From contig NZ_VWPY01000001.1 in assembly GCF_011839805.1 (NCBI RefSeq), positions 62,001-126,000 on the forward strand: DNA of 64,000 bases, written 5' to 3'. Below the pieces are notes generated by a model. That model had not been told where the DNA came from, ran no database searches, and worked only from the letters and a program-made list of their open reading frames with translations. Position 1 is the first letter of the stretch; every line of letters starts with the position of its first letter. Below, in pieces: positions 36,110 to 58,804 of the stretch. Made by a program: the position numbers and the translations under genes. This stretch comes from Kineococcus rubinsiae (GTDB lineage Bacteria; Actinomycetota; Actinomycetes; Actinomycetales; Kineococcaceae).

Positions 36110-36616
36110 GTGGCGTCAGCACCGGGGTCGGAGGCGAGGTTCTCCGAGCAGGAGCGGACCGCGATGAAGGAGCGGGCGTCCGAGCTGAGGACGCAGGCGC
36201 AGCGCAGCGGGCCGACGGGCAAGGGGTCGGGGACGGGCAAGGCCGCGGAGAAGGCGGCGCAGAAGGCCGCGGCCGACGAGGCGGACGTGCTGGCCAGGAT
36301 CGCGCAGATGCCGGCGGCGGACCGGGCGCTGGCCGAGCGGGTGCACGAGGTCGTCCTGACCGCTGCGCCGGACCTCGCGCCGAAGCTCTACTACGGCCAA
36401 CCCGGCTGGGCGAGAGCCGGATCCGTCGTGTGCTTCTTCCGCAGCGGGCAGATGGACAAGCTCCGGTACTCGACCTTCGGGTTCAGCCCCCACGCGCGGC
36501 TGGACGAGGACGGGGGCCTCTGGGCGACCTCCTACGCGTTGACCGGCGACGCGGACGAGGCGACGTGGGAGCGGATCGCCCGGCTGGTCGAGCGGGCCAC
36601 CGCCGGGACGTCCTGA
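36110..36616 (+). CDS. DUF1801 domain protein
   Basis: The 168-residue protein has a Lys/Ala-rich, probably coiled N-terminus (residues 10-60) and a DUF1801 (YdhG-like) domain containing LAPKLYYGQPGWARAGSVVC and MDKLRYSTFGFSPHARLD. The domain's biochemical role is unknown. The start is GTG 36110. It sits between selA and an AraC-type regulator; a link to selenium metabolism is not evident. Confidence 0.82.
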   Translation: MASAPGSEARFSEQERTAMKERASELRTQAQRSGPTGKGSGTGKAAEKAAQKAAADEADVLARIAQMPAADRALAERVHEVVLTAAPDLAPKLYYGQPGWARAGSVVCFFRSGQMDKLRYSTFGFSPHARLDEDGGLWATSYALTGDADEATWERIARLVERATAGTS

Positions 36617-36634
36617 CCCGCCGGTGAACCGCCC

Positions 36635-37612: not shown

Positions 37613-37831
37613 GCCGGCAGACGGTAGGGCCGCGACCGCCGCGGACGCCAGGAGGGTGAGACGCCCGCGCATCCGCTCGCCGCTCTCGACCATGTCCCGG
37701 AGGGCCCTCGTCCGCTTCGCTGGCTCCATGACGAGCACCGCGTCCCCGACGACGAGCACCACCCGTCCCCCGCCCCTCCCCGGGGCGACCGGCAGGGCGG
37801 AACAGCGAGCCGCGGAGGGGGTGCGGGGCTC

Positions 37832-38260
37832 GTGAGGGTCCTGGCGCTGGCCGCCGGCATCGGGTGCGCGGTGGTGGGCGGTGTGTTCTTCGCCTTCTCC
37901 ACGTTCGTCGTGCCCGCGCTGGTGCGCCTGCCCGAGGCGCAGGCCGCCCCGGCGATGCGCTCGATCAACGTCCTGGCGGTGCGGCCGCCGTTCATGCTCG
38001 CGCTGTTCGGCACCGCGGCCGCGTGCCTGGTGCTGGCGGTCCTGGCCGTCCGCGGCGCGGACCCGCGGGTCGTAGTCGCGTGCGCTCTCTACCTCGTCGG
38101 GGTGGTCGCGGTCACCGTCGCCGGCAACGTCCCGCTGAACGACCGCCTGGCGCAGGAGCAGGCGACGTTCCACGCCGTCGCCGGGGCGTGGTGCGCCTGG
38201 AACCACGTGCGCACCGTCTCCGCGGTCCTCGCGGCGGTGCTGCTCCTCGCGCAGAGGTGA
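37832..38260 (+). CDS. DUF1772 integral membrane protein
   Basis: The 142-residue protein has four predicted membrane segments (about residues 3-28, 53-73, 82-101 and 122-140). The pattern GGVFFAFSTFVVPAL at the start and NVPLNDRLA with WCAWNHVRT later is the DUF1772 (anthrone-oxygenase-like) signature. Function in bacteria is unclear. Start GTG 37832, divergent from the AraC gene, so it is a likely target of that regulator. Confidence 0.85.
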   Translation: MRVLALAAGIGCAVVGGVFFAFSTFVVPALVRLPEAQAAPAMRSINVLAVRPPFMLALFGTAAACLVLAVLAVRGADPRVVVACALYLVGVVAVTVAGNVPLNDRLAQEQATFHAVAGAWCAWNHVRTVSAVLAAVLLLAQR

Positions 38261-38277
38261 ACGCAGGAGGCGGCCGC

Positions 38278-38373
38278 TGGCGGAGGCGGATGGGAATCGA
38301 ACCCACCTGACCGAGGTGCTCGGTCACGCCGGTGTTGAAGACCGCGGGGGCCACCAGGCACCCTGACGCCTCC
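38278..38373 (-). tRNA. selC: tRNA-Sec (anticodon UCA)
   Basis: A 96-base tRNA with encoded CCA end. The acceptor arms GGAGGCG and CGCCTCC pair. The anticodon loop CTTCAAC gives anticodon TCA at 38336-38338, which reads UGA. The long variable arm has a 7-bp stem (TGACCGA/TCGGTCA), as expected for tRNA-Sec. The T arm contains GGGTTCGATTCCC. It lies 144 bases upstream of, and divergent from, selD. Confidence 0.96.
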
Positions 38374-38516
38374 CCGGGCAGCAGACCGGTCCCGCGGGAC
38401 CGGCCCGGTCAGCCTGGCAGAGGCCCGTCCGGGCGGCACGTCGGCCCCCCACCCGGGGCGGGCCACCCGTCGCGGGGCCGGTCGCGGGGTGTGGACCCGC
38501 CGATTACGGTCGCGGC

Positions 38517-39521
38517 ATGACGACGACCAGCCCCGCCGCGGTCCGCCTCACGCAGTTCGCCCACGGCGGGGGGTGCGCCTGCAAGATCCCGCCCGGTGAG
38601 CTGGAGCAGATGGTCGCCGGCCTCACCTCCGCCGGGCAGGCGCCGGGCGACGACCTTCTCGTCGGGGTCGGCGACGACGCGGCCGTGGTCCGGATCAGCG
38701 GGGACGTCGCGGTCATCGCGACGGCCGACTTCTTCACCCCCGTCGTCGACGACGCCTACACCTTCGGGCGCATCGCGGCCACGAACGCCCTCTCCGACGT
38801 CTACGCCATGGGCGGGCGTCCCCTGGTCGCCGTGAACCTGCTCGGCTGGCCCCGCGACCTGCTCCCGCCGGAGCTCGCCCGCGAGGTGCTGCGCGGCGGG
38901 GCCGACGCCGCGGCGGAGGCCGGCTGCCACGTCGGCGGCGGGCACAGCATCGACGACCCGGAACCCAAGTACGGCATGGCCGTCACCGGCACGGGGCACC
39001 CGGACCGGCTGCTGCGCAACGACGCCGGGCGCGCGGGCGTGCCGCTGACCCTGACGAAGCCGCTGGGCCTCGGCGTGCTGAACAACCGCCACAAGGCGAC
39101 GGGTGAGGTCTTCGAGGAGGCGATCGCCGTCATGACGACGCTGAACGCCGCCGCCTCCAGCGCGGCGCTGGCCGCGGGGGTGCGCTGCGCGACCGACATC
39201 ACGGGGTTCGGCCTGCTCGGGCACCTGCACGAGATCACCCGCGCCAGCGGTGTCACCGCCGTGGTCGACGCGGCGGCCGTGCCGTACGTCGACGGGGCGC
39301 GGCAGTCGCTGCGCGACGGCTTCGTGCCCGGGGGTTCGCGCCGCAACCTCGAGTGGGTGCGGCCGTTCCTGGACGCGGGGTCCGCGAGCGAGGAGGAGCT
39401 GATCCTGCTCGCCGACGCGCAGACGTCCGGCGGGCTGCTCGTCGCGGGCGAGCTTCCGGGTCACCCCGTGGTGGGCGAGCTCGTCCCCGCCCGCGACGGC
39501 CGCACCGTCGTGGTGCGCTGA
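38517..39521 (+). CDS. selD: selenide, water dikinase SelD
   Basis: The 334-residue enzyme makes selenophosphate from selenide and ATP. The catalytic loop is GGGCACK: Cys20 and Lys23 match E. coli Cys17 and Lys20, so this SelD uses Cys, not Sec, at its active site. ATP-binding signatures include GVGDDAAVV near 51, TADFFTPVVDD near 69 and the glycine-rich GGGHSIDDPEPKYG near 140. Start ATG 38517. It provides the selenium donor for SelA. Confidence 0.96.
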   Translation: MTTTSPAAVRLTQFAHGGGCACKIPPGELEQMVAGLTSAGQAPGDDLLVGVGDDAAVVRISGDVAVIATADFFTPVVDDAYTFGRIAATNALSDVYAMGGRPLVAVNLLGWPRDLLPPELAREVLRGGADAAAEAGCHVGGGHSIDDPEPKYGMAVTGTGHPDRLLRNDAGRAGVPLTLTKPLGLGVLNNRHKATGEVFEEAIAVMTTLNAAASSAALAAGVRCATDITGFGLLGHLHEITRASGVTAVVDAAAVPYVDGARQSLRDGFVPGGSRRNLEWVRPFLDAGSASEEELILLADAQTSGGLLVAGELPGHPVVGELVPARDGRTVVVR

Positions 39522-39525
39522 CGCG

Positions 39526-40419
39526 TCACCCGCGCGGGGCGCCCGCCGTCCCGGAGCCGTCCGAGGTCGCCGCCGGGGCCCCGCCCTCGTGGCCGGTCCC
39601 GTCGCTGCCCGCGTCGCTGCCGCGCAGGAACAGGTACCAGTAGGCGAGCCCGACGAACACCGTGCCGCCGACCGCGTTGCCCAGGCCCGCGAACACCCAG
39701 TTGCGCAGGATGTCGCCCCACCCGATCCCGGGGACCCCGGCGAACAGGGCCGCGGGCAGGAAGAACATGTTGGCCACGACGTGGTCGAAGCCGAGCGCGA
39801 CGAACGCGGTGATGGGGAAGAAGATCGCCGCCACCTTGCCGCCGATGTCCTCGGCGGCCATGGCCATCCACACGCCCAGGCACACCAGCCAGTTGCAGCC
39901 GATGGCGCGCAGGAAGACCGTGCCGTCGTCCTCGGTGATCGCCTTGCCCGTCGCGATCGCGCCGAGGCGCTCGTAGGCGGAGTGGGCCGCACCCGCCGGT
40001 GACGACGCGGTGCCGATGACGCCGGTGTGGACGGCCAGGACGTAGGCGACGAACAGCGACCCGATCAGGTTGGCGACGAGGACCACGCCCCAGTTCACCC
40101 CGAGGCGCCCCAGCGTCACGCGCTTGCGCAGCACAGCCATCGGCACGAGGGCCATGTTCCCGGTCAGCAGCTCCGCCCCGCCGACGATGACGAGGATGAG
40201 GCCGAGGCTGAACACCGCACCGGTCAGCAGCGTCGTGACGCCGCCCCAGATCGCCGGGTCGAGGCCCGCGGTGACGACGACCGCGAGCAGCCCCGCGAAG
40301 GCGATGTAGGCCCCGGCGAGGAACCCGCCCACCAGCATCTTGCCGGTGGACAGGTGGGCCTTCTTGTCCCCGGTCGCGGCGGCGGCGACGGCGATCTGGT
40401 CAGGGGTCTTGTACGCCAC
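39526..40419 (-). CDS. formate/nitrite channel, FocA family
   Basis: The 297-residue protein has six membrane segments and FNT signatures: GGAELLTGNMALVP near 80, CNWLVCLGVWMA near 176 and GFDHVVANMFF near 212, which holds the central pore histidine. It should pass formate (or nitrite) across the membrane. It lies on the same strand 104 bases after the NrfD-like subunit gene of formate dehydrogenase, so formate is the likely substrate. The C-terminal 35 residues are Gly/Ala-rich and disordered. Confidence 0.92.
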   Translation of the reverse strand: MAYKTPDQIAVAAAATGDKKAHLSTGKMLVGGFLAGAYIAFAGLLAVVVTAGLDPAIWGGVTTLLTGAVFSLGLILVIVGGAELLTGNMALVPMAVLRKRVTLGRLGVNWGVVLVANLIGSLFVAYVLAVHTGVIGTASSPAGAAHSAYERLGAIATGKAITEDDGTVFLRAIGCNWLVCLGVWMAMAAEDIGGKVAAIFFPITAFVALGFDHVVANMFFLPAALFAGVPGIGWGDILRNWVFAGLGNAVGGTVFVGLAYWYLFLRGSDAGSDGTGHEGGAPAATSDGSGTAGAPRG

Positions 40420-40523
40420 GGGAACCTCCGGGTGCGGGGGCGGGGACGCACGGTCTCGACGTCACGGGGGTGGGGAACCGGCTCGCGAGCCGGGGTGGTG
40501 CGGGAGGTCCGTCCGGGCGGACG

Positions 40524-41744
40524 TCAGGCGGAGGCCGTCGCGGCTGCCGCGTCGCGGGCCGCGACGCGCTCGCGCTGCGGGACGACGACGTACTTCGGGT
40601 CCTCGACGGAGGTGATGCCCGCCTCGAAGACGGCCATGCGGGTCAGGAACGAGCCGGTCAGCAGGCACGCGCCGGCGGCCGCCGAGACGACGCGGGAGCG
40701 CCGGCCGAGGACGGCTCCCACGGCGCCCGCCGCGGTGAGGGCGCGGGCCGCGCGCAGGAACTTCCCCGGGCGGCCGATCCGGAACGGCTCGCTCACGAGG
40801 CCGTGCTCGTTCTCCATGCGGTGCGCCGCCACGAGCTCCAGCGTCGCGCCGAGGACCGCGGCCCGGCGCGCCGGGACGGCCTGCGCCACGGGCGAGAGCA
40901 GCATCCCCGCGCCGGCCCCGCTGGCCAGGGCGCTGCCCGCGAAGACGAACGGGAGCTCCCGGTAGGGCTCGTGCCAGGAGGGCACGGCCGTGTCGGCGAA
41001 CAGCACGGCGGTGTAGGTGGCGAGCAGCGGCGCGAAGAGCGCCGCCCCGGCCCCGGCCACCGAGGCCGCCGGGCGGGCGAGGGTCCGCGCGAGGCCCCAC
41101 ACACCGCGCTGCGGCAGCAGGACGGCGCCCTCGAACACGGCCGCCGCACCGCACAGCGGCCCGAAGCCCGTGAGGATCCACGTGCCGACCGACATGGGCG
41201 AGGTCACCTTGGCCACGCGGAGCATGTTGTAGAACCGCTCCGGCTTGCCCAAGTCGATGATGAGGAAGTAGGCGCTGGCGCCGACCGCCGTCAGCGACGT
41301 CAGGCGCAGGTTGCGCCGGGCCGTCGCGTCGCCGCGCGCGTCCGCGACGAGGGCGAGCATCGAGGAGCCCGCGGCCAGCCCGCCGGAGAACAGGTAGTAG
41401 GCGATGTCGTGCGTCCACACGGGCCGCTTGAGGACCGGGCGGCCGTAGTAGGAGCGGAACTCGGCGTCGGGGACGACCGCGTTCGGGTCGCCCCGGCGGC
41501 GCCGGCCACCGCGGCGGCGGGGCTTCCCGCCGTCGGGCCCACCGGGGGCGTCCACCGCGGCCCCGTCGCGGCGCCCCATGCCGGCGCCCCACATGCGCGC
41601 CGCCTGGCCGCCGAGGGGGTCGTGGTGGGACTGCCCGCCCTGGTGGGCGGGGTGCGGTTCCTGGTTCTGGGTCCGGCGCGGGTCGGCGTCGGGGTGCGGG
41701 TCGCGCTCGAAGGCCCCCTCGGTGGGGCTGCCGGGGGTGTTCAC
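40524..41744 (-). CDS. NrfD/PsrC-like membrane subunit of formate dehydrogenase
   Basis: The 406-residue protein has a long hydrophilic His/Asp/Arg-rich N-terminus (1-90) and then eight or so membrane segments (from HDIAYYLFSGGLAAGSSML, near 112). SAYFLIIDLGKPERFYNMLR is the NrfD family signature. It should anchor the complex and exchange electrons with quinone or menaquinone. The GTG at 41744 overlaps the iron-sulphur subunit stop (GTGA). The long N-terminal extension is unusual for NrfD proteins. Confidence 0.9.
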   Translation of the reverse strand: MNTPGSPTEGAFERDPHPDADPRRTQNQEPHPAHQGGQSHHDPLGGQAARMWGAGMGRRDGAAVDAPGGPDGGKPRRRGGRRRRGDPNAVVPDAEFRSYYGRPVLKRPVWTHDIAYYLFSGGLAAGSSMLALVADARGDATARRNLRLTSLTAVGASAYFLIIDLGKPERFYNMLRVAKVTSPMSVGTWILTGFGPLCGAAAVFEGAVLLPQRGVWGLARTLARPAASVAGAGAALFAPLLATYTAVLFADTAVPSWHEPYRELPFVFAGSALASGAGAGMLLSPVAQAVPARRAAVLGATLELVAAHRMENEHGLVSEPFRIGRPGKFLRAARALTAAGAVGAVLGRRSRVVSAAAGACLLTGSFLTRMAVFEAGITSVEDPKYVVVPQRERVAARDAAAATASA

Positions 41745-42910
41745 GAGCGGCGCCCCAGACCGGAGACGAGCGCCCCGAGGACCATGGCGCCCGCCGCGAC
41801 GGCCATGTGCTTGTACATCGAGGGCAGGTCCCGCGTCGTCACGACCGGGTCCGGCGGCAAGCCGTAGACCTCGGGCTCGTCGAGCAGGAGGAAGAACGCC
41901 CCGTCCCCGCCCACGCCGTCGTCGGGGTCCTCGCCGTACAGGCGCGCCTCGGTGACGCCGACGTCGTGCAGCTGCTGCCGCCGCGCCTCGGCGCGCTCGC
42001 GCAGCTCGTCGAGGTCGCCGTACTGGATCGACTCGGTGGGGCACGCCTTGGCGCACGCGGGCGTCTCGTCGTTGCCGAGCCGGTCGTAGCACAGCGTGCA
42101 CTTCCAGGCCCGGCCGTCGCCCTCGCGCTTGTCGATGACGCCGTAGGGGCACGCGGAGACGCAGTAGCCGCAGCCGTTGCAGACGTCCTGCTGCACGACG
42201 ACTGTCCCGAACTCGGTGCGGAACAGGGCGCCCGTGGGGCAGACGTCGAGGCACGCGGCGTGGGTGCAGTGCTTGCAGACGTTGGACATCATCAGCCAGC
42301 GCACGTCCTGGCGGCCCTCGCGGTCCGGCAGCGGGGCCGGCGCGAGCATGCCGGGCATGCCGAGGAACTGCTCCGACGCGGGCGCGGCGGTGGTGGTCGT
42401 CGCGGCGGCGGCGGCCGGTGCGGAGCCGCACCCTCCCCCGCCGGACCCGCAGCCGCAGCCGCCCGAGGCACCGGTGGCCGCCGCGGCCGCGTCGGCTATC
42501 GGCGTGCCGCCCGGGAGCGCCGTGCCGAGGCGCGAGGCCTCCTCGAAGACGTCGATGCCGGCCGCGACGACGTCCTGCTGCAGGGCGTCGGAGGACCCGC
42601 CCGTCGTGGTGCCGTCGAAGGCGGGGGTCCCCCGGCCGATCGGGCGCGACTGCTCGATGAACGCCACGGCCCGCCACGAGTCCGCGCCGAGCCCGCCGGT
42701 GTTGTCGTAGGACATGCCGAGGAGGTCGATGCCGTCCTCCGGCACCATGTTCCACTCCTTGCACGCCACCTCGCAGGCCTTGCAGCCGATGCACACCGAG
42801 GTGTCGGTGAAGAACCCCTTGCGGGGCGGCGGGGCCTCGTAGCCGGCGTTCGCGGCCGGGTCGTCGAGGCGACCGGCGAAGCTGTTCGGGGCCACCGTGC
42901 GCGGGACCAT
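41741..42910 (-). CDS. fdhB: formate dehydrogenase iron-sulphur subunit
   Basis: The 389-residue subunit carries four 4Fe-4S clusters that relay electrons from the catalytic subunit. The first cluster motif is CIGCKACEVAC (40-50); the others are CKHCTHAACLDVC (212-224), CNGCGYCVSAC and CTLC...CAKAC. Between clusters there is a roughly 105-residue insertion (92-198) with a Gly/Cys-rich stretch (GGCGCGSGGGGCGS) and an Ala/Thr run. A single C-terminal membrane segment (AVAAGAMVLGALVSGL) would anchor it. The ATG at 42910 shares one base with the catalytic subunit stop. Confidence 0.94.
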   Translation of the reverse strand: MVPRTVAPNSFAGRLDDPAANAGYEAPPPRKGFFTDTSVCIGCKACEVACKEWNMVPEDGIDLLGMSYDNTGGLGADSWRAVAFIEQSRPIGRGTPAFDGTTTGGSSDALQQDVVAAGIDVFEEASRLGTALPGGTPIADAAAAATGASGGCGCGSGGGGCGSAPAAAAATTTTAAPASEQFLGMPGMLAPAPLPDREGRQDVRWLMMSNVCKHCTHAACLDVCPTGALFRTEFGTVVVQQDVCNGCGYCVSACPYGVIDKREGDGRAWKCTLCYDRLGNDETPACAKACPTESIQYGDLDELRERAEARRQQLHDVGVTEARLYGEDPDDGVGGDGAFFLLLDEPEVYGLPPDPVVTTRDLPSMYKHMAVAAGAMVLGALVSGLGRRS

Positions 42911-45900
42911 CAGTTCCCCTCCAGGCTCGTGTCGGGGTGCGCGTCCAGGACCGCCGGGTCGACACCGTTCTGCTGCGGCTGACCCGGCCGGGACCGGACG
43001 TCGTGGCGGACGCTCAGGACCTTCTCCATCTCCGCCGCGCTGTGACCCGTGCCGGTGCCGGTGGCCCCGGCCATGGCCTGCTCGACCCGGCTCTTGCCCT
43101 GCGGGTCCAGCAGTTCCGCGGTCACGGCGACCGCACCCGAGGACATGGTCACGGCACCGCGCACCCGGTAGGCGTCGATGAGGTCGAGGACCTCCCCGCC
43201 GCGCGGGCGCCGGCCGGGCTGCACGTCGCACGTCCCGGCCTTGAACTCCTGGATGTGCACGTTCGGGTCCAGCGTCAGGTGCGCGAGGTCGTTGACCACG
43301 TCACCCGTCGTGAGACCGCCGCCGCCACCCCAGTGGTAGGGCATCCAGATCTGGTGGACCACGCGGTCCTGGATGCGCAGCGGCGCCAGGCGGTCGGTCA
43401 CCATCACGCGGGCCTCGACGACGGCGCGCGCGGTGATGACGTGCGCCCACCCGAGGTGCTCGAGACCCTGCTGGGCCGCGAGCTCCGGCGAGACCTCCAT
43501 GAACAGCGCGGGCTGCAGCTCCGCCAGGTACGGCAGGTACCGGCTCATGCCGCCCGCCGTGTGGTGCTCGGTGAGCCGCGACGTCACCCAGACGAAGGGG
43601 AACACGTCGCTGCCGCGCTCCGGCGGCGACGGGTGCACCTCGTTGAGGTGGTTCGTGTAGAGCTCCCGGGCCGGGTTCTGCTGCTGCGTGTAGACGGTGT
43701 TGCGGAACGGCGACTCGGCCGGCTCGTAGTGCGCCGGCAGCGGGCCGTCGACGACGCCCTTGGGCGCGTAGAGCCAGCCCTTGCCGTCGCTCTGCATGAT
43801 GAACGGGTCGTCGCCGGCGATCGCCTCGACGCCCGTGGCGCCCTTCGGCGGCCGGTAGGACGGGGCCTTCGTGGCCTCGAAGTCGGGGATGTCGTCCCCG
43901 ACCCAGCGGCCCTGGGCCTCGTCCCACCACACGAGCGCCTTGCGCTCGCTCCACGGCTTGCCGTCCGGGTCCGCCGAGGCGCGGTTGTACAGGACGCGCC
44001 GGTTCATCGGCCACGCCCAGCCCCACTCGTGCGCGTGCAGCGACTGCTCGCGCCCGGGCTTGCGGCGCGCGGCCTGGTTCACGTCGTCGGCGTAGACGCC
44101 CGAGTAGATCCAGCACCCGCTGGAGGTCGAGCCGTCCGCCTTCAGCGCCGTGTAGCCGGGCAGCAGGTCCCCGGTGCTCCGGTCGTAGCCGTTGATCTCC
44201 CGCAGGACGTCCTCGGAGCTCGGCTCCTGCTTCTCGCCGTGCACCGGGTAGTCCCAGGCGACGTCGAGCAGCAGGCGGTCGCGCGGGTCCGTGGACCCGG
44301 CGAGCTTCTCCCGCATGCGCCGGCCCAGGTGGTAGAAGAACCACAGCTCGCTGGTGCAGTCGCCCGGCGCCTCGACGGCCTTCTCCCGCCACTGCAGCAG
44401 CCGCTGCGTCTGGGTGAAGGTGCCCTCCTTCTCCACGTGGGAGGCGGCGGGCAGGAAGAACACCTCGGTGCGGCACTCCTCGGGGACGATCTCCCCCGTC
44501 TCGACCTCGGGCGCGTCCTTCCAGAACGTCGCGCTCTCGATCATCACGAGGTCGCGCACGACCATCCAGTCGAGGTTGGCCATGCCGAGGCGCTGGGCAC
44601 GGCCGTTCGCCGAGCCCACCGCGGGGTTCTGCCCCAGCAGGAAGTACCCGAAGATCTTCCCGCCCTCGATCATGTCCATGACCTGGCCGTAGGTGCCGTG
44701 GTCACCGTTGATCTTGGGCATGGCGTCGAACAGGTAGTCGTTCTCGGCCGTCGCGGCGTCGCCGAAGTAGGCCTTCAGCAGGCTGATCGTGTAGGCGTCC
44801 GCGTTGCCCCAGAAGCCCTTCTGGTTCGCGCCCTTGATCGAGTCGATGTACTCGGCGAGGCTGCGGTGCCGCTCCGCGTGCGGCATCTGCAGGTAGCCGG
44901 GCAGCAGGTTGTACAGCGTCGGGATGTCCGTGGAGCCCTGGATGCTGGCGTGACCGCGCAGCGCCATGACCCCGCCCCCCGGGCGGCCCATGTTGCCCAG
45001 CAGCAGCTGGAGGATCGCCCCGGCGCGGATGTACTGCACACCGGTGCCGCGCTGGGTCCACCCGACGCTGTAGACGAGCACGCCCGTCTTCTCGCGCCCG
45101 GAGTTGCTGATCCAGGCCTCGGCGATCTCGTCGAAGAGGTCGGTGGGGATGCCGCAGACCTCCTGCACCATCTCCGGGGTGTAGCGGGCGAAGTGCCGCT
45201 TCATCACCTGCCAGACGGTGCGCGGGTCCTGCAGCGTGTCGTCGCGCTGGATCGACTCGTGGTCGACCGCCGCGCCGCCCGCGCCCAGGGAGTGCCCGGA
45301 CTCGCTCTCCTGGGAGTCGGCCGTCTCCTCCTGCTCGTCCCCGTGGTGCTCGGCCCCGGCGTACTGCCAGGACTTGGTGTCGTAGGAGCGCGTCTCGGAG
45401 TCGAAGCCGGAGAACAGCCCGTCGAGGTCCTCGGTGCCCTGGAAGTCCTCGCTGACGAGCCAGGAGGCGTTCGTGTAGGCGAGGACGTACTCGCGGAAGT
45501 CCCGCTCCTGGGTCAGGACGCGGTTGATGATCGCCCCGAGCAGCACGATGTCCGTGCCCGTGCGGATGGGGACGTAGGTGTCCGCCAGCGCACTGGTCCG
45601 CGTGAACCGGGGGTCGATGTGGATGACCTTGGTCCCGCGGGCCTTCGCCTCCATCACCCACTGGAACCCGACCGGGTGGCACTCGGCCATGTTCGAGCCC
45701 TGGATGACGATGACGTCGGCGTTGCCCAGGTCCTGCAGGTCAGAGGTGGCTCCACCGCGACCGAACGAGGCACCCAGACCGGGCACCGTGGCGGAGTGTC
45801 ATATGCGGGCCTGGTTCTCCACCTGGATCGCGCCCATGGCGGTGAACAGCTTCTTGATGAGGTAGTTCTCCTCGTTGTCCAGCGTGGCTCCACCCAGGCT

Positions 45901-46368
45901 GGCGATCCCCATCGTGCGGTTGAGCTTGTTGCCCTGGTCGTCGGCGTCCTGCCAGCCGCGCCGGCGCGCCTCGATCGTGCGGTCGACGATCATCTCCATC
46001 GCGGTCTCGAGGTCCAGGTCGGACCACTCGGTCGCGTAGGGGGCGCGGTACTTGACCTGCGTCATCCGCTGCGGGCCGTTGACGAGCTGCTCGCTCGCGG
46101 AGCCCTTGGGACACAGGCGGCCGCGCGAGTGCGGGCTGTCCGGGTCGCCCTCGATCTGCGTGACCCGGCCGTCCTTGACGTAGACGCGCTGGCCGCAGCC
46201 GACGGCGCAGTACGGGCAGATCGACTTGGCGACGCTGTCCGCCTCGGCGGTGCGCGGGGTCAGCGACTTCGACTTCTTCGACTGGGCGGCGGCACCGCGG
46301 CCCAGGGGGTCGTCGCCGGTCAGCTGCCGGTAGACCGGCCAGCCCTCGATGAAGGTCCGCACGCCCAC
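42910..46368 (-). CDS. fdhA: selenocysteine-containing formate dehydrogenase catalytic subunit
   Basis: The gene encodes 1152 residues if UGA at 45799-45801 is read as Sec190. Without recoding it would seem to be two genes. The N-terminal cluster ligands are Cys51, Cys54, Cys58 and Cys86 (CPYCAVGCG, LCPKG). The junction reads ENQARI-Sec-HSATVPGLG and then SFGRGGATSD, the exact molybdenum-site motif of formate dehydrogenases, where the residue is Sec or Cys. Molybdopterin-binding domains follow, to the C-terminal PDTSLEGN. The GTG at 46368 is chosen because GGGGA lies six bases upstream. No Tat signal is visible. It oxidises formate to CO2, or the reverse. Confidence 0.95.
45769..45801 (-). 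promoter_or_regulatory. bacterial SECIS-like element with its UGA(Sec) codon
   Basis: The UGA occupies 45799-45801. Reading downstream on the coding strand, GGUGCCC (45781-45787) pairs with GGGUGCC (45769-45775), including two G-U pairs, around the loop GGUCU (45776-45780). The loop starts 21 bases after the U of UGA. E. coli fdhF also has GGUCU at that distance, as I recall its sequence. SelB should bind this hairpin. Confidence 0.85.
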
Positions 46369-46520
46369 GCGCACTCCCCGTTCTCGCTGGGCGCGCACAC
46401 CGTGGTTCCGGGTGCTGCGCCGTCCTGCGGGGAGGCTACTGCGCCCGCCCGCCGACAGCCTCCCGGGGCCCCCGGCGCGTCGAGGACACCGGCGCCCGCG
46501 CCAGGAAGGACGGTCCCCCG

Positions 46521-51579: not shown

Positions 51580-53253
51580 ATGCGCGTCCTTGGTGTCAAC
51601 GCCGTGTTCCACGACCCCGCGGCCGCGCTCGTGGTCGACGGTCAGGTCGTCGCAGCGGCGGAGGAGGAGCGCTTCAGCCGGCGCAAGCACGGCAAGCGCC
51701 CCGTGCCGTACTCCACGTGGGAGCTGCCCGAGCTGGCCATCCGCTCGTGCCTGCAGCAGGCGGGGCTGAGCATCACCGACGTCGACCTCGTCGGGTACTC
51801 CTACGACCCGCGCCTGGTCCTGCCGTCCTCGGAGCTCGACCTCGGCGACCCGGACGACGCGATCCGCACCGACTACGCGCGCCGCGCCCCCGAGGCCCTG
51901 GCCACGGCCTTCCCCGGCCTGGACCGCGAGAAGGTCCGCTTCGTCCCCCACCACGTCGCCCACGCCGCCTCGGCCGCGCTCGCCTCCCCCGAGGCCGCGC
52001 GCGCGGGCGGCAGCAGCGTGCTCACGGTCGACGGCCGCGGCGAGCAGATCTCCTCCCTCCTCGGCCGCTACACGGGCGGATCCCTGCAGGTGCTGGCCAG
52101 CCAGCGCCTGCCCGACTCCCTGGGCCTGGTCTACGAGAACCTCACGAGCCACCTGGGTTTCCTGCACTCCTCCGACGAGTACAAGGTCATGGCGCTCGCC
52201 TCCTACGGCAAGCCCCGCTTCGCCGACGAGATCGCGGAGTTCATCCACGCCACCGGCGACGGGGGTTTCGTCGCCCGCTCCCCCGAGTGGAGCCGGTGGG
52301 CCCCGCGGCTGCTGGACGGCGAGCAGTGGGACCCCCGCCGCGACACCGACCACGCCGACCTGGCCGCGTCGGTGCAGGAGGCCCTCGAGCGCACGCTCGT
52401 CGACCTCGCCACGTGGCTGCACGCGCAGACCGGCGACCGCGTCCTGACCATGGCCGGCGGCACCGCGCTGAACTGCGTCGCGAACTCCCGCATCTGGCGC
52501 GAGAGCCCCTTCGAGGAGGTCTTCGTGCAGCCCGCCGCGGGCGACTCGGGCACGGCTCTCGGTGCGGCGCTGCAGGTCTCGGCCGACGAGGGCGAGCTCG
52601 TGGCGCCCATGACGACCGCCGCCCTGGGCCGCGGGTGGAGCGACGACGAGCTCGCGGGCTGGCTGCAGCGCGCCCGCGTCCCGTACACGACGCCCGACGA
52701 CCTGGCCGGTGAGGTCGCCGACGTGCTCGCCGCCGACGGCGTCGTGGCGTGGTTCCAGGGGCGCTCGGAGTTCGGGCCCCGCGCCCTGGGTCACCGCTCG
52801 CTCATGGCCCACCCCGGCCGCTCGGAGAACCTCGAGCGCCTCAACGACGTCAAGGGCCGTGAGCAGTTCCGGCCCGTGGCGCCCATGGTGCTGGCCGAGC
52901 GCGCGCCGGAGATCTTCTCCGACGGCCCGTTCCCGAGCCCGTACATGCTGTTCGTCCACGACGTGCGCCCGGAGTGGCGCCAGCGGATCCCCGCCGTCAC
53001 CCACGTGGACGGCACGGCCCGCATCCAGACCATCGACGACGAGCGCACCCCGCAGGTGGCCGCGCTGCTGCGCGCGTTCGAGGCGCGCACGGGGCTGCCG
53101 GTCGTCGTGAACACCAGCCTGAACACCGCGGGGCGGCCCATGGTCGACGACCCCCGCGACGCGCTGGAGCTGTTCGGCTCCGCGCCCGTCGACGTCCTGG
53201 TCCTCGGTCCCCACCTCGTGCGACGGGCCGGTCTGTTCCAGGGCGGAGCGTGA
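51580..53253 (+). CDS. carbamoyltransferase, NodU/CmcH family
   Basis: The 557-residue enzyme transfers a carbamoyl group from carbamoyl phosphate to a hydroxyl, usually on a sugar. The N-terminal Kae1-like domain starts MRVLGVNAVFHDPAAALV and has the metal-binding HHVAHAASA near 127. The C-terminal domain has the hallmark EFGPRALGHRSLMAHP near 400 and PVVVNTSLNTAGRPMV near 507. CGGAGG lies nine bases before the ATG at 51580. It opens a glycan operon with GTGA overlaps, so it probably decorates a sugar in that glycan. Confidence 0.94.
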   Translation: MRVLGVNAVFHDPAAALVVDGQVVAAAEEERFSRRKHGKRPVPYSTWELPELAIRSCLQQAGLSITDVDLVGYSYDPRLVLPSSELDLGDPDDAIRTDYARRAPEALATAFPGLDREKVRFVPHHVAHAASAALASPEAARAGGSSVLTVDGRGEQISSLLGRYTGGSLQVLASQRLPDSLGLVYENLTSHLGFLHSSDEYKVMALASYGKPRFADEIAEFIHATGDGGFVARSPEWSRWAPRLLDGEQWDPRRDTDHADLAASVQEALERTLVDLATWLHAQTGDRVLTMAGGTALNCVANSRIWRESPFEEVFVQPAAGDSGTALGAALQVSADEGELVAPMTTAALGRGWSDDELAGWLQRARVPYTTPDDLAGEVADVLAADGVVAWFQGRSEFGPRALGHRSLMAHPGRSENLERLNDVKGREQFRPVAPMVLAERAPEIFSDGPFPSPYMLFVHDVRPEWRQRIPAVTHVDGTARIQTIDDERTPQVAALLRAFEARTGLPVVVNTSLNTAGRPMVDDPRDALELFGSAPVDVLVLGPHLVRRAGLFQGGA

Positions 53254-54863
53254 GCACGGCCACCGGGGCCGTCGTCGGGCTCGCCCCGGGCCGGCCGGAG
53301 GAGAGCAGCGCCCCCGACGCGGGCACGAGCTTCTCCGTCGTCGTCCCGACGGTGGGGCGCCCGAGCCTGGGCGTGCTGCTGGACGGGCTGGCCGCGCAGA
53401 CCGGCCCGCTGCCCGACCTCGTGGTCGTCGTCGACGACCGCCGCGGGCGCGACGCGGGCGAGGACCCGTGCGTCGCCGCCGTCGAGCGCGCCCGCACCGC
53501 CGGGCTCACCGTCCGCCTCGTGCGCTCGGGGGGCCGCGGGCCCGCCGCCGCGCGCAACGCGGGCTGGCGGCGCACGACCTCGGAGTGGGTCGCCTTCGTC
53601 GACGACGACGTCGAGCTGCCCGCGGTGTGGTCGCGCGAGCTGGTGCGCGACCTCGCGCAGTGCCTGCCCGACGTCGGCGGCTGCCAGGGCTCGATCACCG
53701 TGCCGCTTCCGCCCGACCGGCGCCCCACCGACTGGGAGCGCGGCACCGCGGGCCTGGAGACGGCCGCCTGGATCACCGCCGACATGGCCTACCGCCGCGA
53801 GGCGCTGGTCGCCGTCGCAGGCTTCGACGAGCGCTTCCCGCGCGCGTTCCGCGAGGACGCCGACCTGGCGCTGCGCGTCGTCGCGGCCGGGTGGGAGCTG
53901 GTGCGCGGCGGGCACCGGGCCGTGCACCCCGTGCGCCCCGCCGCCGACCTCGCGAGCCTGCGCCAGCAGGCCGGCAACGCCGACGACGTCCTGACCGCGG
54001 CCCTGCACGGGCGGGACTGGCGCCGCCGCGCCGACGCCCCCCTGGGCCGGCTGCCCTGGCACCTCGTCACCACCGCCGCCGCCCTGCTCGCCGTCGGGGC
54101 CACCGCCGCCGGGCGCCGCCGCAGCGCCGCCCTGGCCGCGACCTCCTGGGCCGGGCTGACCGCCGACTTCGCGTGGCGCCGCATCGCCCCGGGCCCGCGC
54201 ACGCGCGACGAGGTCGCCCGCATGCTCGTCACGAGCGCCGCGATCCCGCCCGCCGCCGTCTTCCACCGCGCGAAGGGCGAGCTGCGCTGGCGCCGCCGCC
54301 CGCCGCACGCCTGGCCGCCGCCCGTGCGGGCCGTGCTCTTCGACCGCGACGGCACGCTGGTCCACGACGTGCCCTACAACGGCGACCCGGCGAAGGTCAG
54401 CCCGGTCGACGGCGCCGCCGCGGCCCTGCGCCGCGTGCGCGACGCCGGACTGCCCGTCGGTCTCGTCAGCAACCAGTCCGCCGTCGGCCGCGGCATGATC
54501 ACCCTCGCCCAGGTCGACGCGGTCAACGCGCGCCTGGCCGACCTGGTCGGGCCCTTCGCGACCGTGCAGGTCTGCCCGGACGCGCCCGGCGTCCCCTCCA
54601 CGTGCCGCAAGCCGGAGCCGGGCATGGTCCTGGCCGCCGCGGCCGCGCTGGGCGTCTCCCCCGCCGAGTGCCTCGTCGTGGGCGACATCGGCGCCGACGT
54701 CGACGCCGCGGTGTCCGCGGGCGCGCGCGCCGTCCTCGTGCCGATGCCCGTCACCCGGCCCGAGGAGGTCGAGGCGGCCCGCACCACCGACCGCGTGCAG
54801 GTGGCCGCGACCCTGGCCGAGGCCGTGGAGCTGGCCCTGCGCGCCGCGGGAGGTGCGGCGTGA
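53250..54863 (+). CDS. GT2 glycosyltransferase fused to GmhB-like HAD phosphatase
   Basis: The 537-residue protein has an N-terminal GT2 domain (28-250: nucleotide-binding VVPTVGR, DDD at 118-120, the ED pair at 202-203), a hydrophobic helical region (265-305) and a C-terminal HAD-IIIA phosphatase (360-535: FDRDGTLVHD with Asp365/Asp367, SNQS at 407, CRKPEPGM near 450, VGDIGADVDAA). The phosphatase resembles GmhB, which removes the 7-phosphate from heptose 1,7-bisphosphate; the Cys-rich zinc loop is partly kept (VCPDAPGVPSTC). GTG 53250 overlaps the preceding stop. Confidence 0.9.
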   Translation: MSTATGAVVGLAPGRPEESSAPDAGTSFSVVVPTVGRPSLGVLLDGLAAQTGPLPDLVVVVDDRRGRDAGEDPCVAAVERARTAGLTVRLVRSGGRGPAAARNAGWRRTTSEWVAFVDDDVELPAVWSRELVRDLAQCLPDVGGCQGSITVPLPPDRRPTDWERGTAGLETAAWITADMAYRREALVAVAGFDERFPRAFREDADLALRVVAAGWELVRGGHRAVHPVRPAADLASLRQQAGNADDVLTAALHGRDWRRRADAPLGRLPWHLVTTAAALLAVGATAAGRRRSAALAATSWAGLTADFAWRRIAPGPRTRDEVARMLVTSAAIPPAAVFHRAKGELRWRRRPPHAWPPPVRAVLFDRDGTLVHDVPYNGDPAKVSPVDGAAAALRRVRDAGLPVGLVSNQSAVGRGMITLAQVDAVNARLADLVGPFATVQVCPDAPGVPSTCRKPEPGMVLAAAAALGVSPAECLVVGDIGADVDAAVSAGARAVLVPMPVTRPEEVEAARTTDRVQVAATLAEAVELALRAAGGAA

Positions 54864-55831
54864 GGATCCTCGTCTGGCACGTCCACGGCTCCTGGATGAC
54901 GGCGTTCGTGCAGGGCCGCCACGACTACCTGCTGCCTCTGGTCCCCGACCGCGGGCCCGACGGCCGCGGCCGGGCCCGCACCTGGGACTGGCCCGCGAGC
55001 GCCGTCGAGGTCCCCGCGGAGGACCTGCGACACACCGACTTCGACGTCGTCGTGCTGCAGCGGCCCGAGGAGGTCGAGCTCGTCGAGCGCTGGACCGGCC
55101 GGCGCCCCGGCCGCGACGTGCCCGCTCTGTACGTCGAGCACGACGCGCCCCGGGCGGGCGCCGCGGACAGCCGCCACCCCCTGGCGGACCGCAAGGACCT
55201 CAAGGTCGTGCACGTCACGGCCTTCAACCGCCTCTACTGGGACTGCGGGGACGCGCCGACGGCCGTGGTCGAGCACGGCGTCGTCGACCCCGGCTACCGG
55301 TACACGGGGGCCTCGCCGTCGCTGGCCGTCTCGGTCAACGAGCCCGTGCGCCGCTGGCGCACGGCCGGGACCGACGTCGTGCTGCACCTCGCCGCGGGCG
55401 TCCCCGTGGCCGTGCACGGCATGGGCGTCCTGGACCTCGCCGAGCGCACGCACGGCACGCCGGCGGGGGCGAACCTCACGGTGCACGAGGACCTGCCGCA
55501 GGCGCGCCTGCACGAGGTGCTGGGCACGCACCGCGCCTACCTGCACCCCTACCGCTGGACGAGCCTGGGGCTCTCGCTCATCGAGGCCATGATGCTCGGC
55601 CTGCCCGTCCTCGCCCTGCCCGCCACCGCGGCGCCCGAGAACGTGCCGCGCGAGGCGGGGGTGCTCTCGAGCGACCCCGACGTGCTGCTGGCGACCGCGC
55701 GGCGGTGGATCGCGGAGCCGGAGGAGGCCCGGGCCGCGGGGCTCGCGGCGCGCGAGGCCGCCGTCGCGGCCTTCGGCGTGCACCGCTTCCAGGCGGACTG
55801 GGACCGACTGCTGACGGAGGTGACGTCGTGA
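54860..55831 (+). CDS. GT-B fold glycosyltransferase
   Basis: The 323-residue protein has a short divergent N-domain (VRILVWHVHGSWMTAFVQG) and a GT4-like C-domain with YRWTSLGLSLIEAMMLGLPV near 235, where the catalytic Glu sits. It is shorter than typical GT4 enzymes. It starts in a GTGA overlap at 54860 and ends in another at 55831, so it is co-translated with the fusion proteins around it. Donor and acceptor are unknown. Confidence 0.85.
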   Translation: MRILVWHVHGSWMTAFVQGRHDYLLPLVPDRGPDGRGRARTWDWPASAVEVPAEDLRHTDFDVVVLQRPEEVELVERWTGRRPGRDVPALYVEHDAPRAGAADSRHPLADRKDLKVVHVTAFNRLYWDCGDAPTAVVEHGVVDPGYRYTGASPSLAVSVNEPVRRWRTAGTDVVLHLAAGVPVAVHGMGVLDLAERTHGTPAGANLTVHEDLPQARLHEVLGTHRAYLHPYRWTSLGLSLIEAMMLGLPVLALPATAAPENVPREAGVLSSDPDVLLATARRWIAEPEEARAAGLAAREAAVAAFGVHRFQADWDRLLTEVTS

Positions 55832-57798
55832 CGAACCCGACTGCGCGACAGGGGGTCCCGCCGCGGCGGATCGCCATGGTCTCGGAGCACGCCAGCCCGC
55901 TGGCGGTGCTGGGCGGCGTCGACGCCGGCGGTCAGAACGTCCACGTCGCCGCGCTCGCCGGGGCGCTGGCCGACCGCGGCCACGAGGTCGTCGTCTACAC
56001 GCGCCGCGACGACCCGGACCTGCTGCGCCGCACGGCGCTGCGCCCCGGCGTCGACGTCGTGCACGTCGACGCGGGCCCGCCCGAGGTGCTCGGCAAGGAC
56101 GAGCTGCCGCCGCACATGCCGGCCTTCGGCGAGGTGCTGCGGGAGGCGTGGGCCGGCGAGGGCCGCCCGGACGTCGTGCACGCCCACTTCTGGATGTCGG
56201 GCACGGCGGCCGTGCCCGCGGCGCGCGCCCTGGGCCTGCCCGTGGTGCAGACCTTCCACGCGCTGGGCAGCGTCAAGCGCCGCTACCAGGGCGCCGCCGA
56301 CACGAGCCCAGCGGCGCGCATCCCCGCCGAGCGCTCCCTGGCCCGCGAGGCCGACCTCGTCATCGCCACCTGCAGCGACGAGGTCGCCGAGCTGCACGCC
56401 GCGGGCGTCCCCCCGCGCCGCGTCCAGGTCGTGCCCTGCGGCGTCGACGCGGCGCGCTTCTCCCCCGACGCCCCCGCGGTCGCCGACGTCGTGGGCCCCC
56501 GCCTGCCGGGCTGCCGCACCCGCCTGGTCACCGTGGGGCGCCTGGTGGAGCGCAAGGGCGTCGAGCAGGCCGTCCGCGCGCTGCGGTTCCTGCCGGAGGC
56601 CGAGCTGGTCGTGGCCGGCGGCCCCGACGCGGCCGGCCTCGCCGACGACGCGGAGGCCGTCCGGCTGCAGCGCCTCGCGCACGAGCTGGGCGTCGCGGAC
56701 CGGCTGCGGATGGTCGGCCGGGTCGCTCCCGACGGCCTGCCCGGCGTCCTGCACGCGGCCGACGCGCTGCTGGCCACGCCCTGGTACGAGCCGTTCGGCA
56801 TCGCCGTCCTGGAGGCCATGGCCGCGGGTCTGCCCGTCGTCGCCTCGGCCGTCGGCGGGATGCTCGACACGGTCCGCGACGGCGTCACGGGTCGGCTGGT
56901 CCCGGTCGACGCGACCGGGCACCTCGACCCGGCGGAGCTCGCCGACGCCGTGCGCGGCGTGGTGGACGACCCGGCCACGGCCGCCCGCATGGGCGCCGCC
57001 GGCCGCGAGCTGGCCCGCCAGCGCTACGACTGGGCGCGCGTGGCCGCGGCCACGGAGGCCGCCTACGACCTGGTCCTCGGGGGGCTGCGCGACGTGCGGA
57101 CCCGCGACGCGGGCACCGACGACACCCCCGCCCGGCGCCCCGCGCGCAACCGGCGCCCGCGCGCCACGACCCGCTCCTGGCTGCGCGAGCACGTGGGGGA
57201 GCTCGAGGGCGTCCTGGCCGCGCTCGAGGCGCAGGGCGAGGCGATCGACCGCTGGGGCCGCCGGCTCGTCGACGTCGTCGACGGCGGCGGGCGGCTGCTG
57301 GTGGCGGGCAACGGCGGCAGCGCCGCGGAGGCCCAGCACCTGACGGCCGAGCTCGTGGGCCGGTTCACGGGCGAACGGCGGCCGCTGTCGGCCATCGCCC
57401 TGCACGCCGAGACCTCCACCCTCACGGCCGTCCTGAACGACTACGGCGCGGAGGAGGTCTACGCGCGCCAGGTCGAGGCGCACGGGCGCGAGGGCGACCT
57501 GCTCCTGCTGCTGTCCACGAGCGGCCGCAGCCCGAACCTCCTGCGGGCGGCCGAGCGGGCCCGCTCGCTGGGCCTGCAGGTCTGGGCGATGACCGTCGAC
57601 GCGCCGAACCCGCTGCGGGAGCTGGCCGACGAGGTCATCGCGTTCCCCGGGCCGTCGACGTCGGCGGTGCAGGAGGGGCACCTCATGGCCGTGCACACGC
57701 TGTGCGTCGCCGTCGAGGTCCACCTCCCGGCGGCCCGCGACGGGCAGACCACCCTCGACCTGACGGCCCTGCCGCGCCGCGCCGGCGTCCCCGCGTGA
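55828..57798 (+). CDS. GT4 glycosyltransferase fused to GmhA-like SIS isomerase
   Basis: The 656-residue protein has a GT4 domain (15-420; GGVDAGGQNVHV at 29-40, donor-site EPFGIAVLE at 321-329), an Arg-rich linker (421-450) and a SIS domain (452-650) with NGGSAAEAQHLTAELVGRF near 495 and STSGRSPNLLRAAE near 563. These SIS motifs match GmhA, which isomerises sedoheptulose 7-phosphate to heptose 7-phosphate. One chain could thus make a heptose precursor and transfer a sugar. GTG 55828 overlaps the preceding stop. Confidence 0.92.
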   Translation: MTNPTARQGVPPRRIAMVSEHASPLAVLGGVDAGGQNVHVAALAGALADRGHEVVVYTRRDDPDLLRRTALRPGVDVVHVDAGPPEVLGKDELPPHMPAFGEVLREAWAGEGRPDVVHAHFWMSGTAAVPAARALGLPVVQTFHALGSVKRRYQGAADTSPAARIPAERSLAREADLVIATCSDEVAELHAAGVPPRRVQVVPCGVDAARFSPDAPAVADVVGPRLPGCRTRLVTVGRLVERKGVEQAVRALRFLPEAELVVAGGPDAAGLADDAEAVRLQRLAHELGVADRLRMVGRVAPDGLPGVLHAADALLATPWYEPFGIAVLEAMAAGLPVVASAVGGMLDTVRDGVTGRLVPVDATGHLDPAELADAVRGVVDDPATAARMGAAGRELARQRYDWARVAAATEAAYDLVLGGLRDVRTRDAGTDDTPARRPARNRRPRATTRSWLREHVGELEGVLAALEAQGEAIDRWGRRLVDVVDGGGRLLVAGNGGSAAEAQHLTAELVGRFTGERRPLSAIALHAETSTLTAVLNDYGAEEVYARQVEAHGREGDLLLLLSTSGRSPNLLRAAERARSLGLQVWAMTVDAPNPLRELADEVIAFPGPSTSAVQEGHLMAVHTLCVAVEVHLPAARDGQTTLDLTALPRRAGVPA

Positions 57799-57850
57799 GC
57801 CCGGTGCCCCGCCCCGCCGCCCCGGTTCCCGCTCCCCCGGCGGACCGGGC

Positions 57851-58804
57851 GTGACGCGGGAGCTCACCGACGGCGACGTCCTCGTCCTGCGCGCGCTCGG
57901 CCTCGGCGACCTGCTGGCCGGGATCCCCGCCCTCCGCGGGGTGCGGCGCCGCTGGCCCGGCCGGCGGCTGGTCCTCGCCGCCCCGCGGGCCATCGGGGAG
58001 TTCCTGCGGGCGTGCGGCGTGGTCGACGAGGTGCTGGTCACCTCCGGGCTGGACCCGCTGCCGGCGAAGGGGTCCGGGCACGTCGCGGTCGACCTGCACG
58101 GGCGCGGCCCCGCGAGCCAGGAGCTGCTGCTCGCCACGGGGCCGGAGTCCCTCCTGGGCTTCCGCAGCACCGCGACCGGCGGCCCCGCGTTCCCCGACGG
58201 GCCGCCGTGGTTCCTCGACGAGCACGAGGTGACGCGCTGGTGCCGGCTGCTGGCCGCGGCCGGCGGCGCGTGCGGGTCCGAGGACCTGCGGCTGCGGGAG
58301 CGGCCCGCGGCGCCTCCCGCCGGCCCGGTCGTCGTGCACCCCGGCGCCGCGTTCGCCGCCCGCCGCTGGCCCGTGGAGCGCTGGGCCGCCGTCGTGCGGG
58401 CGCTGACGGCGGGCGGGCACCCCGTCGTCGTCACGGGCACCGCCGACGAGGCCGGGCTCGGGGCCGCGCTCGCGGAGCACGGCGCGCGGGACCTCACGGG
58501 GGCCCTGGACCTCGACGGCCTCGCCGACGCGGTGGCCGCCAGCCGCCTCGTGCTGTCGGGCGACACGGGCACCGCGCACCTCGCGACGGCGTACGCCGTC
58601 CCCTCGGTCCTGCTGTTCGGGCCGACGCCGCCGCACTGGTGGGGACCGGCGATCGACGCCGACCTGCACACCGTCCTGTGGCACGGCGACCCGGCCGCGA
58701 CCGACTACGTGGGCGACCCGCACGGCGCCGCACTGGACCCGACGCTCGGGCGCACCGGGGTCGACGAGGTCCTCGCGGCCGCCGCGCGGCACCTCCCGCG
58801 GTAG
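57851..58804 (+). CDS. GT9 glycosyltransferase, heptosyltransferase-like
   Basis: The 317-residue protein has GT9 hallmarks: LRALGLGDLLAGIPALRGVRR at 13-33, VVHPGAAFAARRWPVERWA near 155 and the donor site SGDTGTAHLATAYAVPSVLLFGPT near 235. GT9 members transfer heptose from ADP-heptose to glycans in Gram-negatives; in actinobacteria the substrates are unproven. It starts at GTG 57851, 52 bases after the GT4-SIS gene. It supports the heptose reading of this operon. Confidence 0.9.
   Translation: MTRELTDGDVLVLRALGLGDLLAGIPALRGVRRRWPGRRLVLAAPRAIGEFLRACGVVDEVLVTSGLDPLPAKGSGHVAVDLHGRGPASQELLLATGPESLLGFRSTATGGPAFPDGPPWFLDEHEVTRWCRLLAAAGGACGSEDLRLRERPAAPPAGPVVVHPGAAFAARRWPVERWAAVVRALTAGGHPVVVTGTADEAGLGAALAEHGARDLTGALDLDGLADAVAASRLVLSGDTGTAHLATAYAVPSVLLFGPTPPHWWGPAIDADLHTVLWHGDPAATDYVGDPHGAALDPTLGRTGVDEVLAAAARHLPR

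Follow-up and report, generated by a model that had tools for sequence, protein, structure and literature searches.

Heptose oligosaccharides are best known from the envelopes of Gram-negative bacteria, and among the closest described counterparts of the genes reported here is the GmhA/HldE/GmhB adenosine diphosphate (ADP)-heptose pathway of Escherichia coli. We have analysed a 64,000-nucleotide stretch of Kineococcus rubinsiae (assembly GCF_011839805.1, contig NZ_VWPY01000001.1, positions 62,001 to 126,000), referred to below as the window, which carries at 51580–58804 an operon of five plus-strand genes that is most likely one half of a widespread actinobacterial heptose gene set, split and reduced in this strain. 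Homologues for all four activities of the E. coli pathway are present in the genome, which departs from that pathway in its fusions to glycosyltransferases, in reaching none of the equivalog cut-offs, and in the loss of a zinc pattern from the HAD phosphatase encoded in the window. A second counterpart is the lipopolysaccharide (LPS) inner core of Pseudomonas, where, as here, heptosyltransferase-family genes and a carbamoyltransferase accompany heptose genes; the likeness is one of gene content, and the host here is an actinobacterium, in which to our knowledge no Kdo-lipid A acceptor is to be expected. Carbamoylated heptose in the Pseudomonas core, with WapO as its putative carbamoyltransferase, is described in PMC8005017.

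Tridomain isomerase/kinase/nucleotidyltransferases of actinobacteria, or nucleoside diphosphate (NDP)-heptose synthetases, have been reported by Tang et al. (2022, Sci China Life Sci 65:1014), as summarised in PMC11573728 and PMC10948575. The corresponding SIS-kinase-nucleotidyltransferase arrangement is complete in two other Kineococcus genomes, G001 (706 aa) and G009 (genomes, contigs, loci and families are numbered G, C, L and f, respectively), and in the window strain would be broken over two contigs. That strain differs from the work as summarised in that a further SIS domain is fused to a GT4 glycosyltransferase, GmhB is fused to a GT2 glycosyltransferase, and the pathway lies at two loci. 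The pathway itself is known; what we did not find described is its fusion to transferases, its setting among GT9 and carbamoyltransferase genes, and its division between two loci. Among the top-ranked literature matches, with subscription papers mostly outside the search, there is no description of the glycan product of the operon or of GT2-GmhB and GT4-GmhA fusions, which does not show their absence from print; a paper on Actinoplanes exopolysaccharide (PMC13390465) does not mention heptose.

Operons of this kind, with their own heptosyltransferase-family genes, recur across 14 named actinobacterial families among 54 loci with sufficient flanking sequence. Kineococcus offers a natural dissection of the system: the pathway is shared out between two loci, each lacking parts that the other carries, and the GmhB step depends on just one fused domain. 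NDP-heptoses are potent ALPK1 agonists (PMC11573728), so it is of consequence for innate immunity to know the actinobacteria that produce them.

The window operon

The original prediction, made from the window alone, proposed an operon for a carbamoylated heptose glycan, and both reading of the sequence and domain scans confirm that the operon is real. Its first gene (51580–53253) encodes a carbamoyltransferase of the NodU/TobZ/GdmN superfamily that passes the gathering scores of PF16861 (218.9 bits) and PF02543 (175.9 bits) without reaching the NodU equivalog NF041651 (208.5 against 1000 bits); its best match in the PDB is 7xb6, followed by the novobiocin carbamoyltransferase 9s2t, TobZ and GdmN, and it is the single PF16861 match in the genome. 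The second gene (53250–54863) encodes a 537 aa fusion of a GT2 domain (PF00535 at residues 29–137), through a helical linker, to a GmhB-like HAD domain (54327–54851; TIGR01662, HAD-IIIA, at residues 360–497; also matched by NF006506). It is followed by a GT-B-type glycosyltransferase of 323 aa (54860–55831; PF13692 34.5 bits, PF00534 33.7 bits), which we call GTx, whose N-terminal half has no Pfam match and which is an extra transferase relative to the gene list of the original prediction. The fourth gene (55828–57798) encodes a 656 aa fusion of a GT4 domain (PF13439 127.5 bits, PF00534 112.9 bits), through a flexible linker, to a GmhA-like SIS domain at 57169–57738 that matches SIS_2 with 85.6 bits and is also matched by the gmhA model TIGR00441. 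The last gene encodes the heptosyltransferase-like GT9a (57851–58804), which scores 77.0 bits with PF01075, above the cut-off of 22, and 63.7 bits with the heptosyltransferase I equivalog TIGR02193, short of 185.3.

The starts at 53250, 54860 and 55828 each overlap the preceding stop as GTGA, which gives the coupling originally described at three junctions; the start of GT9a does not directly overlap the SIS gene. These two genes are bridged by a 19-codon mini-open reading frame (mini-ORF; VSPVPRPAAPVPAPPADRA) on the same strand at 57795–57854, which is GTGA-coupled at both ends, with its GTGA start on the SIS stop and its TGA on the GTG of GT9a. Because the same gene order recurs in relatives, we do not regard the operon as a product of chance. 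As originally noted, neither a kinase nor a nucleotidyltransferase is among its five genes.

The second locus and the proposed pathway

The original prediction had left two possibilities, that the kinase and nucleotidyltransferase lie elsewhere or that the activated sugar is unusual, and a whole-genome search decides for the first. An HldE-type kinase (TIGR02198, 131.4 bits) is fused behind a second SIS domain at the left end of contig C99, in a gene that is open to the contig end and reads off it, and an HldE-type nucleotidyltransferase (TIGR02199, about 180.5 bits) begins contig C102, with a reading frame open at the left end and lepA downstream of it. The gene immediately preceding SIS-kinase on C99 is GT9b, which together with GT9a accounts for the two GT9 matches of the genome. 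By inspection rpsT is on C99 and lepA on C102, and in the sister species G002 the kinase-nucleotidyltransferase gene adjoins lepA; C99 and C102 would accordingly be neighbours. An unusual activated sugar is rejected because the HldE parts are present in the genome; an HldE-type kinase-nucleotidyltransferase also sits within the operons of relatives, and the three GHMP kinases of the genome do not look HddA-like by start sequence and neighbours.

No phosphatase is seen at the C99/C102 locus, and the window HAD is the sole good GmhB candidate in the genome, scoring 96.9 bits in a whole-genome NF006506 search in which the runner-up has 27.3. The two loci are therefore reciprocally incomplete, the window holding this candidate and C99/C102 the kinase and nucleotidyltransferase.

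We propose that the window operon and the C99/C102 genes together probably constitute an NDP-heptose glycan pathway, split in this Kineococcus over two loci. SIS (GmhA) would convert sedoheptulose-7-phosphate to heptose-7-phosphate, the kinase domain on C99 would form heptose-1,7-bisphosphate, the HAD of GT2-HAD would strip the 7-phosphate, and the nucleotidyltransferase on C102 would yield the NDP-heptose. GT9a from the window and GT9b from C99 would attach heptose to an oligosaccharide also built by GT2, GTx and GT4, which the carbamoyltransferase would decorate. Gene content, gene order, homology, the two-locus split and co-occurrence are direct observations; all of these reactions, as well as the sugar configuration, the acceptor, the carbamoylation site, the envelope location and the origin of the fusions, we infer.

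The C102 nucleotidyltransferase carries the motif YLPGRSTT, which keeps the Arg of (F/L)XXGRSTT and has Tyr in the first position in place of Phe or Leu; according to PMC11573728 and PMC11461863, the latter motif belongs to the STTR5 promiscuous heptose nucleotidyltransferases, which give cytidine diphosphate (CDP)-, uridine diphosphate (UDP)- or ADP-heptose. Among 62 nucleotidyltransferase calls in loci L085–L164, STT of the GxSTT motif is preceded 23 times by Arg and 20 times by His. This residue has been linked in print to the choice of nucleoside triphosphate, and to judge from the motif the donor nucleotide may differ between families.

Distribution in other genomes

When named genomes were scanned with the alignment of GT2-HAD, at least 581 stretches were confirmed, of which the best 80 were taken; as their retrieval used the GT2 motifs of that alignment, these best 80 of at least 581 cannot gauge how often GmhB is unfused. 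GT2-HAD was called in 70 of the 80 loci (in none of L121, L133, L136, L138, L149, L153, L154, L156, L159 and L162), and leaving out the 16 of these 70 with short flanks gives a set of 54 whose flanks reach 2.5 kb or more upstream and 9 kb or more downstream, spanning the 14 named families. Genes of relatives were predicted with a simple codon-model caller, which gave no calls in L063 and nearly none in L167, and domains were assigned by BLAST against the domains of this genome plus the SDR of relatives; absences are weak for that reason. Somewhere in the 54 loci we find the kinase and the nucleotidyltransferase in 51 each, GT9b in 50, SIS in 49, GTx in 46, GT4 in 44, GT9a in 43, the carbamoyltransferase in 37 and SDR in 27. 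SIS alone is unseen in two of these loci (L127, L161).

A set of 59 genomes, that of the window included, gives a second view of co-occurrence. A nucleotidyltransferase above 170 bits and a GT9 match above cut-off pick out the identical 18 genomes and none of the other 41, and a HAD above 150 bits picks out those 18 and G011. The nominal chance of two 18-genome sets coinciding is about 1.5e-15, for genomes that are related and not independent; at least four within-family contrasts agree, as families f1, f5, f17 and f18 contain both states. Of 11 Kineococcus genomes 7 have the pathway, and each of these 7 has one HAD above 150 bits (at most 24 candidates scored per genome); G005–G008 are Kineococcus genomes that lack it. 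The original assignment of the operon to heptose is thus supported by GmhA, GmhB and HldE homology together with co-occurrence.

The carbamoylated product originally proposed fares less evenly, its heptose part being supported by homology and its carbamoyl part plausible only: the carbamoyltransferase is found in none of the 16 Geodermatophilaceae loci against 37 of the 38 others. A carbamoyl-heptose product is plausible by analogy with the Pseudomonas precedent.

Kineococcus G003, G004, G009 and G010, and genomes of families f2, f5, f8, f17 and f18, carry one operon with carbamoyltransferase, GT2-HAD, GT9b, GTx, GT4, SIS, kinase-nucleotidyltransferase and GT9a, often with SDR outside Kineococcus. 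G001 has only the second kind of locus, with its own HAD; both kinds occur in G009, where the second has no HAD. The first kind lacks both GT9b and hldE in the window strain and in G002, for which loss is the simplest reading. The mini-ORF lies where relatives carry hldE (L049–L052 have the kinase-nucleotidyltransferase gene there), and G002 has a 12-codon equivalent that is coupled likewise. Because position, frame and coupling fit, we suggest that the 19- and 12-codon mini-ORFs are scars of in-frame hldE deletions that keep translational coupling; residual HldE similarity cannot be shown in either, as 19 and 12 codons are too short. We dropped the notion that G002 lacks the second SIS, since its contig C233 stops just upstream of the kinase.

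Some neighbouring genes deserve mention. In the sister-genus genome G011 a carbamoyltransferase fragment and GT2-HAD stand by themselves (L053, 7985–9888), the genome has neither a TIGR02199 nor a GT9 match, and the operon there has apparently decayed or been orphaned. In three Kineococcus genomes the second heptose locus has next to it genes for a glycosyltransferase of family GT8 and a lactone oxidase of the FAD/ALO type (L065 3220–5642, L064 9958–12305, L166 12906–15190; Pfam-based naming for the L064 pair only). An NAD-dependent epimerase/dehydratase gene is convergent to the operon in many relatives (e.g. L057 16546–17496), and in Amycolatopsis the gene after GT9a encodes a nucleotide-sugar dehydrogenase (L120, 5153–6463; TIGR03026, 415.9 bits). 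The same glycan may thus contain a second sugar, for example a pentose or a uronic acid.

The HAD and SIS domains

In comparisons with solved structures, the window HAD and SIS domains resemble GmhB and GmhA above other families. The structures closest to the HAD by sequence are all GmhB (4pnh 59.1 bits, 3l8e 57.7, 2gmw 57.3; the HisB structure 2fpr has 36 against 57–59 for GmhB), a structure search with the GT2-HAD model matches the HAD part to 3l8e at a template modelling (TM) score of 0.80–0.81 by target length, and alignment with these three GmhB proteins shows the HAD-IIIA catalytic motifs DRDGT, SNQS, RKP and GDIGAD to be kept. For SIS the closest structures are GmhA (1tk9 138.8 bits, 2xbl 137.3, 2x3y 136.8), with named phosphoheptose isomerases at ranks 1–11 in the PDB and DiaA at ranks 12–13. 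Its AEAQHLTAEL and VQEGHL align with ADAQHIAGEF and IQEGHL of 2xbl and 2x3y, and we take the aligned His/Glu and Gln/His to be metal and catalytic positions.

Several observations weigh against the split NDP-heptose pathway that we propose. The SIS and HAD domains fall short of their equivalog cut-offs (150.6 against 209.45 bits with TIGR00441; 93.6 against 178 with the GmhB model NF006506), as do the kinase (131.4 against 345) and, just barely, the C102 nucleotidyltransferase (180.7 against 181.5), whereas two broader models are passed by the HAD, that for HAD-IIIA and TIGR01656 for histidinol-phosphatase domains (88.5 against 84.15). At 54573–54605 the HAD lacks the zinc-ligand pattern CxH..CxC, presumably the zinc site of GmhB, and has CPD..TC (CPDAPGVPSTCRKP). 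Of the 72 HADs called in named loci 71 keep the pattern and only that of K. indalonis does not; in the 13-row alignment A1 it is lost in six rows (the window and L049–L053, all of family f1, which are fused proteins from Kineococcus and the sister genus) and kept in the other seven, and the stand-alone HAD of G001 retains it. To go by this loss, the specificity of the window HAD may have shifted. As to distribution, SIS, kinase and nucleotidyltransferase are all unseen in 3 of the 54 loci (L128, L130, L164), the bit thresholds for nucleotidyltransferase and HAD were chosen after the gaps had been seen (next scores 110.7 and 63.5), and at E 0.001 some HAD or GT2 match occurs in 49 of the 59 genomes and some nucleotidyltransferase match in 35. 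The adjacency of C99 and C102 spans a contig gap. Lastly, an envelope product is a guess, because no flippase, polymerase or ligase is among the five window genes.

Alternative readings and the domain fusions

This last point bears on an alternative that is unlikely and yet merits serious attention, namely that the operon makes a natural product, a small glycoside that is soluble or secreted, and not an envelope glycan. The five window genes include none for export or ligation, septacidins and spicamycins are made by way of ADP-heptoses (PMC10948575), and antibiotics are modified by carbamoyltransferases of the same superfamily. Against this, a natural-product scaffold is not built by any of the five genes, and an antibiotic cluster would not be expected to range as widely as the 14 named families represented in the 54 loci.

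The fusions raise further alternatives. The closest solved relatives of the window GT4 are sucrose-phosphate synthase (6kih, 202.9 bits) and MshA (3c4q, 181.5 bits), in structure as in sequence, and both of these enzymes act on phosphorylated acceptors. That the window GT4 is MshA itself is rejected, as it scores 241.6 bits with TIGR03449 against a cut-off of 462.5, and the genome has another match to the MshA model, at C1:205817–207043, that does exceed the cut-off (638.4 bits). One could then suppose that GT4 glycosylates heptose-7-phosphate or another sugar phosphate supplied by its own SIS and that a HAD removes the phosphate later, an order of steps that parallels sucrose-phosphate synthase and its HAD phosphatase. 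Of the four MshA residues that we take to contact phosphate, the equivalents of K78 and R154 are kept in the window GT4, and among operon GT4s the pattern around R is present in 65 of 68 and the strict pattern around K in 43 of 68. However, the other two contacts are altered (Y110 to F, T134 to A), the comparison set in which the pattern is absent (0 of 9) consists of distant GT4s that may simply misfit it, and in most rows GT4 is not fused to SIS. We consider this model improbable. We hold as very doubtful its wider form, in which many actinobacteria would build a conserved carbamoylated heptose oligosaccharide by LPS inner-core logic, using two GT9s and a carbamoyltransferase, with GT4-SIS channelling the acceptor and not the donor and the GT2-linked HAD dephosphorylating later.

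The original prediction held that fusion implies channelling of the sugar to its transferase, each fused biosynthetic domain passing it straight to the attached enzyme, and this claim we do not uphold. In its favour is the GT2-HAD fusion, which is steadier than the SIS fusions and found in 15 of the 19 genomes with a HAD above 150 bits, the less biased figure from the 59-genome set (HAD is apart from GT2 in G001 and G050, and the matches in G016 and G034 span HAD only). Among loci found with GT2 motifs, and hence biased toward fusion, the two are fused in 84 and unfused in four, of which two, L121 and L162, are probably gene-calling errors, as both domains align there. The GT2-HAD model is compact, with a predicted local distance difference test score (pLDDT) of 93.1 and a predicted TM score (pTM) of 0.90, and has GT2 at about residues 28–225, helices at 235–349 and HAD at 361–534; the helical segment is of moderate hydrophobicity (peak 1.15 over 19 residues), with membrane contact neither proven nor excluded.

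Channelling of a donor is nonetheless very improbable, because the fusion state of SIS shifts between lineages and the products of GmhA and GmhB, heptose-7-phosphate and heptose-1-phosphate, are not glycosyl donors, lying three steps and one step, respectively, ahead of the NDP-sugar. Among 77 SIS rows (L051 and L085, both counted, are the same K. indalonis operon) 46 are alone, 17 kinase-fused and 14 GT4-fused, where fusion was scored with GT4 and kinase only, the upstream and downstream neighbours of stand-alone SIS. On a quick SIS tree with 16 of 73 inner branches starred, the fusion state changes at least nine times, and the GT4-SIS label shows at least three gains or losses on well-supported branches. 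The GT4-SIS model (pLDDT 86.7, pTM 0.67) places its two domains on a low-confidence linker, with residues 432–443 below 50. Read-through between tightly coupled neighbouring genes is the most likely origin of the fusions, whose effect would be to tether the domains or fix their stoichiometry; the tethering of GmhB to GT2 could still matter.

Hardly credible is the alpha-type route through guanosine diphosphate (GDP)-heptose, with HddA and HddC in place of HldE, to which Mycobacterium tuberculosis GmhA is assigned (PMC7705670) and for which a gmhD (guanosyltransferase) gene is mentioned in Rhodococcus ruber (PMC12786566): it is rejected in that the whole-genome search found an HldE-type kinase and nucleotidyltransferase and only three GHMP kinase matches, which by start sequence and neighbours are GalK-, IspE- and ThrB-like and on inspection include no HddA (HddC was outside the search), and the window HAD scores 23.1 bits with the alpha-type phosphatase model NF050049 against 93.6 with the beta model.

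Other features of the window

A selenocysteine gene set lies at 32894–46374 of the window, with proteins named by sequence inspection: SelB-like (32894–34654), SelA-like (34655–35923), tRNA-Sec (38278–38373) and SelD-like (38517–39521). The gene for a formate dehydrogenase alpha subunit also belongs to it, on the minus strand at 42910–46374, and codon 192 of that gene is a single in-frame TGA.

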